Below are positions 5,856-12,672 of a DNA stretch of 64,000 nt, in pieces. Position 1 is the stretch's first letter; every line of letters starts with the position of its first letter. A model generated the notes under the pieces. That model saw only the letters and a list, made by a program, of their open reading frames with translations. It had not been told where the DNA came from and made no database searches. Position numbers and translations under genes: made by a program. Source of the DNA: Halogranum gelatinilyticum (lineage in GTDB: Archaea > Halobacteriota > Halobacteria > Halobacteriales > Haloferacaceae); NCBI RefSeq assembly GCF_900103715.1, contig NZ_FNHL01000002.1:310001-374000 (forward strand), given 5' to 3'.

Positions 5856-6458
5856 CTACTGCTCGCGGTAGCTCCGCCACTCGGTCTCCTCGGAGAGGGT
5901 CTCGAAGGCCTCGGCCTCCCGCGGCCCGCCGCACTTCTCGACAGTCTCCGCGAAGTACTCCAATCGGTTCACGAGGACCGCCGTGTCGAAGGCGGGCACG
6001 TCCAGCCGCGAACAGGCGACGGTCGCGTCGACGACAGCCGAAAAGCCCCGGTTGATGGTCGGCACGGACTCGCGGACGACCGCGCTCTCGACGGGCCGAA
6101 GCTCCCACCGCTCCCAGCGCGTCCCGCCCTCGGAACCTGCGTCGACCTGCGTGGCCTCCACCTCGACCCAGGCGTCCGCGCCGGGTAGCGTCGGTTCCTC
6201 TCGCTCGTGGATGGTCAGGGCGGCCGCGACGAACTCTCTGGGGTCCCCCGTGAACTGGACGACGCCGCCGCCTTGCCGGTGAAAGTTTCGGCGAGTTCGG
6301 GTGTTGCCCCACGTCGTCGCCGTCACCGGCGCTCCGTTCTCGCTCGGCGCGTGCAACCCCAACGCGGCGAAGTTCCACAAGTCGTTCGGCCCGAGCGTGG
6401 CGACGACTGATTCGGTGACGCCCCTGAGTTCCACGGGCCAGTCTCCAGTCTCGCTCAT
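5856..6458 (-). CDS. DUF447 domain-containing protein
   Basis: The 200-residue protein matches archaeal DUF447: an N-terminal TESVVATLGPNDLWNFAALGLH segment (read here in two parts), TATTWGNTRTRRNF around residue 50, and the C-terminal VLVNRLEYFAETVEKCGG. The N-terminal half resembles a flavin-reductase-type split barrel, so FMN or pterin binding is plausible; no reaction is established here. Its ATG overlaps the stop of the CitG-like gene as ATGA (6455-6458), so the two are probably translationally coupled. The context with CitG-like, Dus-like and cofD genes points to coenzyme metabolism. Confidence 0.82.
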   Translation of the reverse strand: MSETGDWPVELRGVTESVVATLGPNDLWNFAALGLHAPSENGAPVTATTWGNTRTRRNFHRQGGGVVQFTGDPREFVAAALTIHEREEPTLPGADAWVEVEATQVDAGSEGGTRWERWELRPVESAVVRESVPTINRGFSAVVDATVACSRLDVPAFDTAVLVNRLEYFAETVEKCGGPREAEAFETLSEETEWRSYREQ

Positions 6459-7315
6459 ACTGGAAGCCCCCGCTCCAGCGCGACGAACAGTGCCGCGGCG
6501 GTGATGTCGGCCGTCGTCCCGGGGTTCAGTCCCTCGGCGACGAACTCGTCGGCCAGTCGCTCGACGGCCTCGGGGTCGCCCTGCACCTCGGCGGCGCGTC
6601 GGCTGACCTCGCGTGCGACCTCGGGACCGTGCTGGGTCGCGACGAGCGTGTCCGGTTCCTCGGCGAGCAGGTCGACGAAGGCCCGCGAGGCGCGGTCCAG
6701 CACCGGGCCGTCGTCCGCGAGGATGGACTCGGCCGTCGCGAAGGTCCGCGCGAAGCCGCCGGTCCACTCGCGGGCGTTGCCGTCGCGCTCCTCGCTCATC
6801 GCCATCACGTCGGCGAGGGTCAGTCCACGCTCCTCCAGCGTCGGAATCGCCCCAGCCCCGCGGCGGACGTCGAGGTCGGGGGCGTCCGCCGGGGGGTCGT
6901 CGACCGCGACGTCGACGTGCTCGAAGGCACGGTAGAAGTCCGCCGCGTCGGCGACGGTGGTCGACTCGACGACTGCGGTCACACCTTCAGGCGTCAACTC
7001 ATGGTCGTCGCTCGCGGCGGCTCTCACGAGCGTCACCAGTAAGAGCAGACAGCCGAACTGCGTGTTTCCCCCTCTTTGTTGGCTCATCCCAGCTACGCCG
7101 TGCTCGAACGCCTCGCCGACGCGCGCGCCCTCCTCGGCCAACTGGAGACCGCGGCGCGAGCCGACCGACCCGGCGAGGAAATGTTCGAACCGCAGGTCGT
7201 CCAGGTCGTGCGTGCGGTCGACGTTGCCGGGTTTGGGCGTCCCCGCGACTTCGAGCAGGAGCGCGAGTTCGGCGTGTTCGGCTGGCGAGAAGTCGCGGTC
7301 GCTCGTCGCCGTCAC
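6455..7315 (-). CDS. Triphosphoribosyl-dephospho-CoA synthase-like protein (CitG/MdcB family)
   Basis: A 286-residue protein with the CitG signatures: ALLLEVAGTPKPGNVDRTHD near the N-terminus, GGNTQFGCLLLL near residue 85 and GLNPGTTADITAAALFVAL at the C-terminus. Bacterial CitG makes the prosthetic-group precursor of citrate lyase from dephospho-CoA and ATP. No citrate or malonate lyase is nearby, and archaeal homologues are thought to serve another cofactor pathway. The GTG at 7315 overlaps the upstream stop as GTGA. The next gene begins inside its own stop codon. Family is firm; reaction is unknown. Confidence 0.82.
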   Translation of the reverse strand: MTATSDRDFSPAEHAELALLLEVAGTPKPGNVDRTHDLDDLRFEHFLAGSVGSRRGLQLAEEGARVGEAFEHGVAGMSQQRGGNTQFGCLLLLVTLVRAAASDDHELTPEGVTAVVESTTVADAADFYRAFEHVDVAVDDPPADAPDLDVRRGAGAIPTLEERGLTLADVMAMSEERDGNAREWTGGFARTFATAESILADDGPVLDRASRAFVDLLAEEPDTLVATQHGPEVAREVSRRAAEVQGDPEAVERLADEFVAEGLNPGTTADITAAALFVALERGLPV

Positions 7316-8088
7316 GGCGACGCCTCCGGTTCCGGTCGGTCCTCGCCCCCGCCAGCGAACCAGCCGTCGACGGCCGCACGGACCCGCCGGAGGACGGCTG
7401 GATTGTCGCTCGGCCGCCCGACACTCACCGCATCCGCGCCGTACTCGAGATACTCTCGAACGGTCGCTGCGTCGCGGACGCCGTTGTTCGCGACGACGAA
7501 CAGGCCCGTCGCGTCGGCGACGTCGCCGACGACGGATTCCGAATCCATCGCGTCGATGTGGATGAGGTCTGCACCGGCGGCTTCGACCGCCTCCGCCGTC
7601 TCGACGAGGTCGACGCCGTCGACTTCGGCGCGGACCTTCACACTCACCGTCGCACCGGCGTCGACTGCGGCGGCGACGTACTCGGCGAGGCGGTCGGTGT
7701 CGCGCAGTAGCGACTCGCCGCAGCCGACGGCGCACAGCTCTTCCTGCCGGCAGTGGGCGTTGATTTCCAGTATCGCGTCGTGGTCGGCACAGACCGCCGC
7801 GGCGTCGGCGACGGGGCCGACCGTGGCACTTCGGACGTTGAAGCCGACGGTGAGCGACGAATCGGCGAGTTTTGAGAGCTCGCTGTCGACGAAGGCCAGC
7901 GGGTCGTCGGGCAGGAACTCGTCGCGGTCGCGGGCGACGAGTTCGCGGGCCGCCGCTCGCGACGCGTCGTCGAGTGCGATACCGCCGAGGAAGGCGGCTC
8001 CGGCGTACTCACTCCCCGCCCGTGCCCACGCCGCGTCGGCTTCGCCGGAGAGGCTGGCGAGCGCGAGCCGCGGCTCGAACCCGGCCAT
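7312..8088 (-). CDS. tRNA-dihydrouridine-synthase-like TIM-barrel protein
   Basis: The 258-residue protein looks like an FMN-binding TIM barrel of the Dus/dihydroorotate-dehydrogenase type: EINAHCRQEELC near residue 125, VSVKVRAEVDGVDL near 160, VVANNGVRDAATV near 210 and AVSVGRPSD at the phosphate-binding end. True Dus proteins have a catalytic Cys in NxGCP; here the segment reads NAHCRQ, as in archaeal proteins labelled methanogenesis marker or Dus-like. It is much shorter than tRNA Dus (about 320-350) and lacks an RNA-binding tail, so a small-molecule oxidoreductase is as likely. It overlaps cofD as TGATG. Confidence 0.7.
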   Translation of the reverse strand: MAGFEPRLALASLSGEADAAWARAGSEYAGAAFLGGIALDDASRAAARELVARDRDEFLPDDPLAFVDSELSKLADSSLTVGFNVRSATVGPVADAAAVCADHDAILEINAHCRQEELCAVGCGESLLRDTDRLAEYVAAAVDAGATVSVKVRAEVDGVDLVETAEAVEAAGADLIHIDAMDSESVVGDVADATGLFVVANNGVRDAATVREYLEYGADAVSVGRPSDNPAVLRRVRAAVDGWFAGGGEDRPEPEASP

Positions 8089-9104
8089 CAAGCGGCCTCC
8101 GCCCCGGCTGAGTCGGTCAATTCGGCCAACGCCTTGGCGACGGCGCGCGCGACCCGCTCGGCGTCCGCGGGACCGTCGATCTTCGTGTCGGTCCGGACGA
8201 CCGGCCGGTCCAATTCGGTCCCGTCCGCGGTGTCGAGGACGAACGCGTCGGCGAAGGGGTAGGCCTCCGCGACGCCCGCCGTGCTCGCCTCGTAGCCGAC
8301 AGCCTCCATCAGCTTCGCTGCCGGCCCGGAGAACACCTCGTCCTCGACGAACGGCGAGACGGCGACGACCGGCGTCTCGTGGAGTGCTCGCTCGACGCCC
8401 GGCAGTGCCAGCATCGGGCCGATGCTCGTCACCGGATTGGAGGGGCCCACGACGACCGGGTCGGCGAGCGCGTCGAGGGTCTCCGAGGAGGGGCGGGCCT
8501 CGTCGGCCCCGCGGAACTCCACGTCCTCGACGGCGGGGGCAGCACGCTCTGCGACCCAGAACTCCTGGAAATGCATCGCGCCCTCGTCGGTGTGGATGAT
8601 ACTTGCTACGGGGTCGTCCGACATCGGGACGAGGTCGACCGCGAGGTCGAAGGCGTCCGCGAGGATGCGTGTGACCTCGGTCAGCGAGTTGCCCTCGTCG
8701 AGGAGGCTGGTTCGGGTGACGTGAACTGCCCGGTCCTTGTCGCCGATCTCCATGAACTCCGCGACGCCCGAGAAGCGTCGCCAGCGGGCGATGTCGCGGC
8801 CCGCGACCTGTGCCTCGTCGTCGAGGTAGCGCGGCCCCGGTTCGAACCCCGCAGCGTCGGCGAGGCGGTGCAGTTCGGCGTTCGTCTCGGTGGTGTCGTC
8901 GGCGATGCCCCACCACCGGTCGGTGTCGAGGACGCCGCCGCCGTGAAAGAGCACGGTGTCGACGTCGGGGCAGACGAGCAGCCCTCCGAGTTCGACGTCG
9001 TCGCCGGAGTTGCCGACGACGGTCGTCTCGGCGGGGTCGAACACGTCTGCCGCGCCGTCGAGGAGCTTCGGCGTGCCCGTCCCGCCCGCGAGAAAGGTGA
9101 CCAT
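8088..9104 (-). CDS. cofD: 2-phospho-L-lactate transferase (F420 biosynthesis)
   Basis: The 338-residue protein begins [17 protein letters not shown], the nucleotide-binding start of CofD, followed by [24 protein letters not shown], and later [17 protein letters not shown] and AVSPFV. CofD joins an activated 2-phospholactate-type donor to the deazaflavin Fo, giving F420-0. Haloarchaea make F420. It is the first gene of a minus-strand set in which every junction overlaps (TGATG, GTGA, ATGA), so the downstream products are probably made in step with it. Confidence 0.93.
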
Positions 9105-9754: not shown

Positions 9755-10963
9755 ATGACCGCCGTCAAGGACAGCGTCCACGACTACATCTCGCTCGACC
9801 CGCTCGCCCAGGACCTCGTCGACACCCCCGAGTTCCAACGACTCCGCCACATCAAACAGCTCTCCACCGTCCGGCTCGTCTACCCCTCTGCGAATCACAC
9901 CCGCTTCGAGCACTCGCTCGGCGTCTACCATCTCGCCTCCCAGGCCCTCTCACATCTCGGTATCGACGGCGACCGCGCCGACCATCTCCGTGCCGCCGCG
10001 CTCCTCCACGACATCGGCCACGGTCCCTACGGCCACCAGACCGAGCACATCATCATGCGCCACACGGGGCTACACCACGACGAGATTGAGTGGCTCCTCA
10101 CAGACCCCGAAGCGGGCCACCCGAACGGCGAACCCGCCACCCAGACAGTCCGCGACACCCTCGTCGACCACGGTCTCGACCCCGAGCGCGTCGCCGCCCA
10201 CGTCCGCGGCGAGGGTGAACTCGGCCAGCTGGTCTCGGGCGAACTGGACGTCGACCGGATGGACTATCTCGTCCGCGACGCCCACCACACCGGCGTCCCC
10301 TACGGCACCATCGACACTGGACGGCTGGTCCGCGAACTCCGGTACAGCGCGGGCGAACTCGTGCTCGACGAGGGCAACGTCCAGACCGCCGAATCCCTCT
10401 TGCTCGCCCGCGGGCTGATGAACGGTATCGTCTACCGCCACCACGTCTCGCGCATCGCGGGGGCGATGCTCGAACGCGCCTCCGAGCGGCTCATCGCTCG
10501 CGACGACACTGTCGACATCGCGACCTTCCAGCGCATGGCCGACCACGACCTGCTCGTCGCGCTCCGCGAGCACGTCCCCGAACTCGGCCGCCGCATCGAA
10601 CGCCGCGACCTCTACAAACGCGCCGTCTGGGCCGACCTCGCCGACGTTCCGGTCGACGTCGTCGACTGCTCTCACGAGGACGAACGCGCCGCCGAGCGCG
10701 AGATCGCCGACGCGGCAGGTATCGACCCCATCGAGGTCGTCGTCGACGTCCCTTCCCGGCCGAGTCTCAAGGAGTCGAACGCCCGCGTCGTCGTCGGCGG
10801 CGTCGTCCAGCGGCTCGAGGAGGCCTCCGAACTCGTCGGCGCGCTCCGCGACGCCGAACGCGCGCAGTGGCGACTCGGCGTCTACACGAAACGCGAGCAC
10901 GTCGACCGGGTCGCCGACGCCGCTCGCGACGTGCTCGGCGTCCGTCTCGGCCGTACCGAGTAG
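9755..10963 (+). CDS. HD-domain phosphohydrolase (SAMHD1/dGTPase-like), copy 1
   Basis: A 402-residue protein with the SAMHD1/YwfO-like HD arrangement: TRFEHSLGVYHLA (first His, 53), AALLHDIGHGPYGH (HD pair at 85-86) and the distal Asp in GELDVDRMDYLVRD. Metal-dependent relatives hydrolyse dNTPs or other nucleotides; the substrate here is unknown. The C-terminal third resembles the same region in the copy at 11449, 1.7 kb away, and both have the segment RRDLYKR or ERDLYKR. A 77-base block is identical between the two genes. Likely cytoplasmic. Confidence 0.87.
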   Translation: MTAVKDSVHDYISLDPLAQDLVDTPEFQRLRHIKQLSTVRLVYPSANHTRFEHSLGVYHLASQALSHLGIDGDRADHLRAAALLHDIGHGPYGHQTEHIIMRHTGLHHDEIEWLLTDPEAGHPNGEPATQTVRDTLVDHGLDPERVAAHVRGEGELGQLVSGELDVDRMDYLVRDAHHTGVPYGTIDTGRLVRELRYSAGELVLDEGNVQTAESLLLARGLMNGIVYRHHVSRIAGAMLERASERLIARDDTVDIATFQRMADHDLLVALREHVPELGRRIERRDLYKRAVWADLADVPVDVVDCSHEDERAAEREIADAAGIDPIEVVVDVPSRPSLKESNARVVVGGVVQRLEEASELVGALRDAERAQWRLGVYTKREHVDRVADAARDVLGVRLGRTE

Positions 10964-11397: not shown

Positions 11398-11418
11398 CGG
11401 CGACGGTTGCTCCCACGG

Positions 11419-11426
11419 TTTTTATC
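11419..11426 (+). promoter_or_regulatory. TATA-like box of the second HD-domain gene
   Basis: TTTTTATC is centred 27 bases before the ATG at 11449, fitting a leaderless start. It gives the second HD gene its own promoter although the zinc-ribbon gene ends only 51 bases upstream. Confidence 0.5.
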
Positions 11427-11448
11427 CGAGAACGCCAAACCCACCCCC

Positions 11449-12672
11449 ATGCTCACCATCAAGGACAGCGTCCACGACCACATCGAGGTCGGGGGCGTCG
11501 CCGAAGCCCTCCTCGACACGCCGGAGATGCAGCGGCTCCGGCACATCAAGCAGCTGGGGACGGTCCAACTCGTCTACCCCTCCGCCAACCACACGCGCTT
11601 CGAGCACAGCCTCGGTGTCTACCATCTCGCGAACCGCGTGCTCTCGCATCTCGGCATCGAGGGCGTGCTGGCCGAGCGGATCCGCGCCGCCGCCCTGCTG
11701 CACGACGTCGGCCACGGACCCTACAGCCACAACATCGAGGCACTCACCCACCGCCACACGGGCAAGTACCACGACGACGTGGCGGAACTCCTGGCGAGTG
11801 GCCGCGTCGGCGACGTGCTCCGCGAGCACGACCTCGACCCCGCTGCCGTCGCCGACCTCGTCGCGGGCGAGGGGCAGTACGGCCAACTCGTCTCGGGTGA
11901 ACTGGACGTCGACCGGATGGACTATCTCGTCCGCGACGCCCACCACACCGGCGTCCCCTACGGCACCATCGACACCGGACGGCTCGTCCGCGAACTGACC
12001 TTCGTCGACGGCCAGCTCGTCTTGGACGAAGGCAACGTCCAGACCGCCGAGTCGCTGCTGCTCGCGCGGGCACTGATGAATCCGACCGTCTACCAGCACC
12101 ACGTCGCCCGTCTCTCGAAGGCGATGCTCCGCCGTGCCTCCGAGCGACTGCTGGAGGAGCCGGACATCTCCGCCGACCAACTCCGGCGGATGGACGACCA
12201 CGACCTGCTCGCCAGCCTGCGGATGACCGGGCGTACCACGGAACTCGCGCGCCGCCTCGACGAGCGCGACCTCTACAAGCGCGGCGTCTGGGCCGAGCGC
12301 GAGGACGTGCCGGACGACGTGCTCGACCTCCCGCACGAGGAGATCCGCGAAATCGAGCGCGACGTCGCCAACGACGTCGGCGTCGAGCCTGACTCGGTCA
12401 TCATCGACGTACCCGCAGAGCCGTCGATGAAGGAGTCATCCTCGCGGGTGATGGTCAACGGCGACGTCCGGCGGCTCGACCGCCAGTCGCCGCTGGTCAA
12501 CGCGCTGCGGACGGCCCAACGCCAGCAGTGGCGGCTCGGCGTCTACGCACCCGGCGACGTCGCCGACGACGTGGGCGAGGCCGCTGTCGACGCGCTCGGT
12601 CTCGACATCGAGGGCGCGCTCGTCAACTACGTGCGCACCGGCCACCGAACGACGCTCGACCAGTTCGAATAG
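11449..12672 (+). CDS. HD-domain phosphohydrolase (SAMHD1/dGTPase-like), copy 2
   Basis: A 407-residue paralogue of the protein at 9755, sharing IKDSVHDHI at the start, the HD core AALLHDVGHGPYSH, the LDVDRMDYLVRD Asp motif and a C-terminal PAEPSMKES-type segment. The ATG at 11449 is chosen because the paralogue aligns from there; an in-frame upstream ATG would add 14 unmatched residues. The shared 77 bases (11899-11975 here) are identical even at third positions, unlike their flanks. The substrate is unknown; deoxynucleotide or nucleotide hydrolysis is the family expectation. Confidence 0.87.
   Translation: MLTIKDSVHDHIEVGGVAEALLDTPEMQRLRHIKQLGTVQLVYPSANHTRFEHSLGVYHLANRVLSHLGIEGVLAERIRAAALLHDVGHGPYSHNIEALTHRHTGKYHDDVAELLASGRVGDVLREHDLDPAAVADLVAGEGQYGQLVSGELDVDRMDYLVRDAHHTGVPYGTIDTGRLVRELTFVDGQLVLDEGNVQTAESLLLARALMNPTVYQHHVARLSKAMLRRASERLLEEPDISADQLRRMDDHDLLASLRMTGRTTELARRLDERDLYKRGVWAEREDVPDDVLDLPHEEIREIERDVANDVGVEPDSVIIDVPAEPSMKESSSRVMVNGDVRRLDRQSPLVNALRTAQRQQWRLGVYAPGDVADDVGEAAVDALGLDIEGALVNYVRTGHRTTLDQFE

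Follow-up and report, generated by a model that had tools for sequence, protein, structure and literature searches.

We analysed a 64,000-nucleotide stretch of the Halogranum gelatinilyticum genome (contig NZ_FNHL01000002.1, positions 310,001 to 374,000), here called the window, and within it an operon that links a gene for coenzyme F420 with genes of methanopterin-type cofactor metabolism. Four open frames of the minus strand, cofD, a Dus-like gene, a CitG-like gene and a DUF447 gene, follow one another head to tail from position 9104 to 5856. The first, cofD (8088..9104), encodes a protein of 338 amino acids (aa) with the PF01933 domain, the 2-phospho-L-lactate transferase of F420 biosynthesis. 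In profile searches it reached the TIGR01819 equivalog with 387 bits against a cut-off of 257, which confirms the initial annotation of cofD as an F420 gene. The second (7312..8088) encodes a 258-aa FMN TIM-barrel protein, Dus-like and of the MJ0144 type, which scored above the cut-off for PF01207 (43.9 bits); its best-fitting family, TIGR00736 (MJ0144), gave 121.8 bits, below the cut-off of 218.7. The third (6455..7315) starts with GTG and encodes a CitG-like protein of 286 aa that belongs to an archaeal subfamily of PF01874 (217.6 bits, cut-off 27). The fourth (5856..6458) encodes a DUF447 protein of 200 aa, a relative of the structures 2iml and 2ptf in the Protein Data Bank (PDB), with both PF04289 and PF20766 above cut-off.

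All four minus-strand genes overlap as originally described. A TGATG stop/start overlap connects cofD to the Dus-like gene (8086..8090), a GTGA start/stop overlap connects the latter to CitG (7312..7315), and an ATGA start/stop overlap connects CitG to DUF447 (6455..6458). The second of these overlaps, between Dus-like and CitG, is the point at which the operon is split in other genomes.

Conservation of gene order

Gene order was compared in a sample of 116 Halobacteria spread over the class, with adjacency taken from coordinates and with absence calls that depend on the assemblies. CofD was present in all 116 genomes, the Dus-like protein in 114, and CitG and DUF447 in 113 each. CitG and DUF447 were adjacent in 113 of 113 genomes and cofD and Dus in 113 of 114, while all four genes were contiguous in 88 of 111. 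The order, which the initial annotation had proposed to check across the Halobacteria, is thus conserved, and far beyond chance.

In 22 genomes, all from family f4, either a gap of over 1.3 kb lay between the Dus and CitG genes or the genes were in separate places; each of these genomes had kept cofD with Dus and CitG with DUF447. The sole other break was seen in a genome of family f5 (G021), where Dus is located with CitG-DUF447 and cofD on another contig. In this divergent haloarchaeon, mptG (see below) lies 25 kb from Dus-CitG-DUF447 on the same contig (L039/L040). Two genomes of family f3 (G002 and G069) cleanly lack the Dus-like gene, so that cofD abuts CitG, and the three smallest of the genomes that have lost CitG-DUF447 keep cofD-Dus. 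Because all breaks but one fall between Dus and CitG, we conclude that the operon consists of two pairs, cofD-Dus for F420 and CitG-DUF447 of methanopterin type. A single four-gene pathway is ruled out by the 22 out of 22 breaks between Dus and CitG and by the three smallest losers, which keep only cofD-Dus. The earlier proposal of one pathway was right in taking these for cofactor genes, and the break pattern replaces its single pathway by two pairs.

Outside the Halobacteria, cofD, a longer Dus-like gene, CitG and DUF447 were found in identical order in family f10 (G116, G151), and the four-gene order was also found in a metagenome-assembled genome (MAG) of the Methanomicrobia (L230). Hydrothermarchaeota and related MAGs contained cofD-CitG-DUF447 without Dus. 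Since family f10, outside the class, has the same order, the operon is older than the class Halobacteria.

Co-loss and linkage of MptG, CitG and DUF447

The beta-RFAP synthase MptG makes beta-ribofuranosylaminobenzene 5'-phosphate (beta-RFA-P) from p-aminobenzoate (pABA) and phosphoribosyl pyrophosphate (PRPP) (PMC6787355). The beta-RFAP synthase family, which carries out the first committed step towards methanopterin, is represented in the genome from which the window was taken by MptG, about 385 kb from the operon, with 154-155 bits to TIGR00144 (cut-off 113.5). Among 391 Halobacteria, MptG was present in 381 (above the TIGR00144 cut-off in 377) and CitG in 379. MptG was thus absent from 10 genomes, CitG from 12 and both from 8, compared with an expectation of 0.31 shared absences (hypergeometric p = 1.7e-12, a value that assumes independence and ignores the relatedness of the genomes). 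A re-test of 33 genomes identified DUF447 as missing from exactly the eight genomes without MptG and CitG. These eight span at least four genera (g3, g117, g15 and the Halobacterium-like g17). Within g3, some species have every gene, others lack CitG alone and others again have none of them. In a control set of 14 genomes, MptG and DUF447 matched the same four archaea, and CitG matched these and E. coli. In haloarchaea, CitG and DUF447 have been lost together with mptG. In one further genome (G096:C12:147960-149032), mptG appears as two partial matches in two frames, possibly due to a frameshift.

One of the genomes with losses, that of Halodesulfurarchaeum formicicum HSR6 (G007), is complete in one contig of 2,085,946 bp (PMC5437934). 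Searches of it with tblastn yielded no match to MptG, CitG, DUF447, Mer (several Mer queries) or the N-terminal half of MetE. CofD and the Dus-like protein, located together, were retained, as were NpdG, Mch, one MetE-type protein and the folate enzymes FolP, FolD and GlyA, for which E. coli sequences served as queries. A match to MetF was too weak to accept (32% over 83 aa, E 8e-4). Mer has accordingly been lost along with the MptG-CitG-DUF447 module in this genome; since the folate genes, the F420 genes and Mch are all kept, none of them needs the module. The lone MetE-type protein (G007:1839648-1840697) matches the C-terminal half of the split MetE at 45% and is located near A-type ATP synthase-like genes.

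The genes mer, DUF447 and mptG were contiguous on one strand in four genomes (G366, G423, G481 and G519; loci L101, L102, L103 and L104), and DUF447 is there located away from the cofD operon. The first three are g3 species without CitG and the fourth belongs to another family. The identity of mer in these clusters was indicated by scores of 446 and 453 bits to NF002619 (cut-off 276). Both halves of the split MetE, described as the common methionine synthase in Halobacteria and predicted to act with methyl pterins (PMC7857596), follow mer-DUF447-mptG in G366, G481 and G519, not in G423, and npdG, the gene for NADPH:F420 reductase, is divergent upstream of the cluster in G366 and G481. A distance of 2.3 kb separates mptG from mer in G002, a divergent genome. 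A non-homologous replacement of CitG beside DUF447 was also considered for the four genomes and rejected, as no transferase was found there, the neighbours being mer and mptG instead.

CitG was followed into other lineages by a scan with an alignment led by the Archaeoglobus protein, which gave 80 named loci, 65 of them outside the Halobacteria. On these 65 loci we counted DUF447 in 30, cofD in 9, mptG in 8 and mch in 3. Bathyarchaeota, a Thermoproteota and a Hadesarchaea MAG have CitG together with DUF447 and mptG; in the first of these mptG-DUF447 adjoins CitG, and in two other archaea CitG adjoins mch. A deltaproteobacterial MAG (L291) contained in a row mptG, an ATP-grasp gene, a DUF6513/pterin-binding gene, Ftr, Mch, a RimK-like ligase and CitG, with Fwd-like genes on the opposite strand. 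This cluster is direct evidence that the archaeal-type CitG is a methanopterin gene. L291 was also the only locus at which the methanopterin-type dihydropteroate synthase (DUF6513) and ATP-grasp ligases were seen, with no search aimed at them in haloarchaea. Together with the other loci outside the Halobacteria, this cluster bears out the earlier statement that CitG-like and DUF447 genes travel with methanopterin-type one-carbon (C1) carrier genes. A literature search in an open library found nothing tying DUF447 or CitG to methanopterin.

The same gene families, mptG, CitG-like and DUF447, are present in the tetrahydromethanopterin island of methylotrophs (mptG, orf17 to orf22, mch, ftr and fwd), in which we take orf19 and orf20 to be DUF447 and CitG. 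For Methylosinus, orf19-orf20-afpA-orf21-orf22 and mptG have been described as methanopterin genes (PMC3615186). In contrast to the methylotroph island, the haloarchaeal genes are divided between the F420 operon and a distant mptG, and folate is also made. No Ftr, Fwd or Fae gene was seen in the haloarchaeal loci that we read, and the genome was not searched for them.

The Dus-like protein and the cofD pair

The structure model of the Dus-like protein is a TIM barrel with a predicted local distance difference test (pLDDT) score of 93.7, equally similar to Dus and to the dihydropyrimidine and dihydroorotate dehydrogenases (DPD and DHOD). Matches to Dus structures stop at about residue 244 of a chain of about 308, whereas matches to DPD and DHOD are full length. 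The C-terminal helical tRNA-binding domain of Dus was not found, and a protein of 258 aa has no room for it. The motif N110-A-H-C113-R-Q115 was invariant in 18 Dus-like sequences and includes the catalytic Cys of the N..C motif. The TIM barrel and the invariant NAHCRQ motif are shared with the MJ0144 family and methanogenesis marker 9. Unlike the proteins of family f10 and of methanogens, the haloarchaeal protein lacks the marker 9 domain. At two loci outside the Halobacteria (L109:5565-6677 and L108:3725-4840) the Dus-like protein of the operon carries this domain (TIGR03277, 156 bits against a cut-off of 96), which places the marker within a cofactor operon.

The cofD gene of the Halobacteria resembles that of archaeal F420 biosynthesis (CofC, CofD, CofE, CofG and CofH) in that it is the equivalog and universal. 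What sets it apart is its coupling to Dus-like and CitG-DUF447; neither is among the named F420 genes. The archaeal dehydro-F420-0 reductase, called CofX, is still sought (PMC6450877), and the Dus-like protein might be this enzyme or a reductase that converts phosphoenolpyruvate (PEP) to 2-phospholactate. By analogy with the dihydroorotate dehydrogenases, it would use FMN to reduce an unsaturated carboxylate. Its adjacency to cofD in 113 of 114 genomes, even where CitG-DUF447 has moved away or been lost, the lack of an RNA-binding domain and the full-length match to the dehydrogenase fold all point in this direction. However, of 177 genomes of the phylum about 60 do not have the Dus-like gene, compared with 171 that have cofD; G002 and G069 keep cofD without it; an outgroup and methanogens have it fused to methanogenesis marker 9; and archaea have been argued to use 2-phospholactate directly (PMC8764529). 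We therefore consider either reductase role unlikely, and the idea that Dus-like is an obligatory F420 gene is weakened by the roughly 60 genomes of the phylum with cofD but no Dus-like gene.

Two neighbours of the operon in the window were also noted. The next gene downstream of DUF447 (5800-5606) appears from its sequence to encode ribosomal protein S17e and was left out of the operon. On the other side, on the plus strand, the operon is adjoined by a tandem pair of paralogues, similar to each other, at 9755-10963 and 11407-12672 (HDIGHGPYGHQTEHI, HDVGHGPYSHNIEAL), which read as HD-domain hydrolase-like proteins.

A putative methanopterin-like carrier beside folate

The reading that we favour, with a probability of roughly 0.7, is that most haloarchaea make a methanopterin-like C1 carrier for the F420-dependent Mer and for methionine synthesis, beside folate. 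We infer the existence of this carrier in haloarchaea, the step of each enzyme and the part played by the Dus-like protein from gene content, linkage and loss. The operon would supply two cofactors that are used together: CofD would serve F420, the linked Dus-like protein acting as its accessory, while CitG, DUF447 and the unlinked MptG would build the aryl-ribose side chain of the carrier. MptG would join pABA and PRPP to beta-RFA-P, DUF447 as an FMN split-barrel protein would perform a reductive step, most likely the opening of ribofuranose to ribitol, and CitG would move the 5-triphosphoribosyl group from ATP onto the ribitol with release of adenine. Through the triphosphate, the ribose phosphate would then be activated so that a phosphodiester with hydroxyglutarate can form, as with CitG and CitX in citrate lyase. 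Mer would use F420 to reduce the methylene carrier to its methyl form, from which the split MetE would make methionine, and folate made in parallel would serve FolD, GlyA and Mch. In its more specific form, which we hold to be somewhat better than an even bet, the proposal is that most haloarchaea have two C1 carriers, folate and an MptG-derived carrier with an aryl-ribose tail dedicated to the methyl level, and that CitG is an ATP-dependent triphosphoribosyl transferase in the assembly of the tail, dispensable in some of the species that retain the core, with tails that vary.

Several observations weigh against this reading. Four genomes keep MptG and DUF447 without CitG, and two others, both fragmented assemblies, keep CitG and DUF447 without MptG (G268 and G400). 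The loss of Mer was examined in one genome, G007. No co-loss of Mch with the module was found, as Mch is kept in 116 of 116 Halobacteria, losers included, and is therefore at least independent of the module. At the position of D19 in the pABA site (MTH0830 numbering), 12 of 12 haloarchaeal MptG sequences have Asn, while R26 of the same site is kept in 11 of 12; the D19N variant of a methanogen MptG is only partly active (PMC6787355). Haloarchaeal MptG also falls below the equivalog model NF040726 (171.5 bits against 328). We do not take this failure as disproof of MptG since the proteins encoded in clear methanopterin clusters miss the model as well (237 and 230 bits), so that NF040726 is not discriminating. 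In the literature, folates are reported from haloarchaea (White 1988, as cited in PMC8305020), the MptG-like HVO_2628 has been judged probably to be without MptG activity, and the haloarchaeal Mch and Mer have been judged to use tetrahydrofolate (PMC8305020).

A rival view, taken for MptG, Mch and Mer in PMC8305020, is that enzymes handed down by an ancestral methanogen now take part in the synthesis or modification of tetrahydrofolate, with no methanopterin-like carrier. The presence of folate genes, the universal Mch, the D19N change and the published folate analyses, as far as PMC8305020 cites them, are all consistent with it. On the other hand, FolP, FolD and GlyA are kept in G007 where MptG, CitG and DUF447 are lost, and folate therefore does not need these proteins. 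Moreover, the chemistry of MptG strips the pABA carboxylate that folate needs for its glutamate, and Mer was lost with the module in G007 and adjoins mptG and DUF447 elsewhere. We regard this explanation as rather improbable. Less probable again is that MptG, CitG and DUF447 make an unnamed cofactor of another kind, a ribosylated aromatic or pterin compound not analogous to methanopterin. The low similarity of haloarchaeal MptG to the characterised enzymes, its D19N change and the dispensability of CitG where MptG and DUF447 stay would agree with such a product, whereas the linkage to Mer, Mch, Ftr and the split MetE points to C1 transfer. The initial annotation had invoked an unnamed cofactor pathway on the understanding that methanopterin synthesis is absent from haloarchaea. 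That premise is now doubtful, given that MptG exceeds the TIGR00144 cut-off in nearly all Halobacteria, is found in the same genomes as CitG-DUF447 and lies in clusters with Mer and methionine synthase. For the same reason the unnamed pathway is not needed, a methanopterin-like C1 carrier being the simplest product.

Within the proposed carrier pathway, CitG is tentatively assigned as the triphosphoribosyl transferase of the methanopterin-type side chain, at slightly less than even odds. In CitG reactions, ATP supplies a triphosphoribosyl unit that becomes linked to a sugar hydroxyl, and adenine is released. In methanopterin, hydroxyglutarate is esterified to the 5-phosphate of an alpha-ribosyl unit, and a triphosphate intermediate would therefore be the natural activated form of this unit. 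The loss of CitG from genomes in which MptG and DUF447 stay fits an enzyme that acts late, on the tail. The archaeal CitG-like proteins share the Pfam family and the PKPGNVDR and NPGT.AD motifs with the triphosphoribosyl-dephospho-CoA synthases CitG and MdcB. They differ in a central N..FG motif (N, F and G invariant), where CitG has NTHKG, and did not reach the equivalog models TIGR03125, TIGR03132 and NF002315 (20-22 bits against cut-offs of 272-282). That the protein is a genuine dephospho-CoA synthase for the prosthetic group of an acyl carrier is, despite its membership of PF01874, very improbable in view of these scores, the lack of linkage to lyase genes and the steady linkage to DUF447, MptG and Mch. 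The DUF447 protein showed full-length similarity to 2iml from Archaeoglobus (E 1.9e-13), which we take from its title to be FMN-binding, and to 2ptf (MTH_863; E 5.2e-07). Its assignment as the flavoprotein that reduces the ribofuranosyl to the ribityl unit is possible, if doubtful.

According to the literature, methanopterin-specific enzymes are absent from haloarchaea and Mch and Mer must use folate (PMC8305020), and the function of mch and mer in haloarchaea and Hikarchaeia has been called unclear (PMC7599335). The gene evidence offers a concrete and testable alternative in an organism amenable to genetics, Haloferax volcanii, whose mptG-like gene is HVO_2628, whose mer is HVO_1937 and whose citG-like and DUF447 genes lie downstream of cofD (HVO_2479). 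It assigns a pathway to three orphan families, the archaeal CitG, DUF447 and the haloarchaeal MptG, and provides candidates for the missing side-chain steps of methanopterin synthesis. If the proposal is true, the annotation of one-carbon metabolism would change in hundreds of genomes, and the sharing of one operon by F420 and CitG-DUF447 genes would be explained by the need of Mer for both cofactors.

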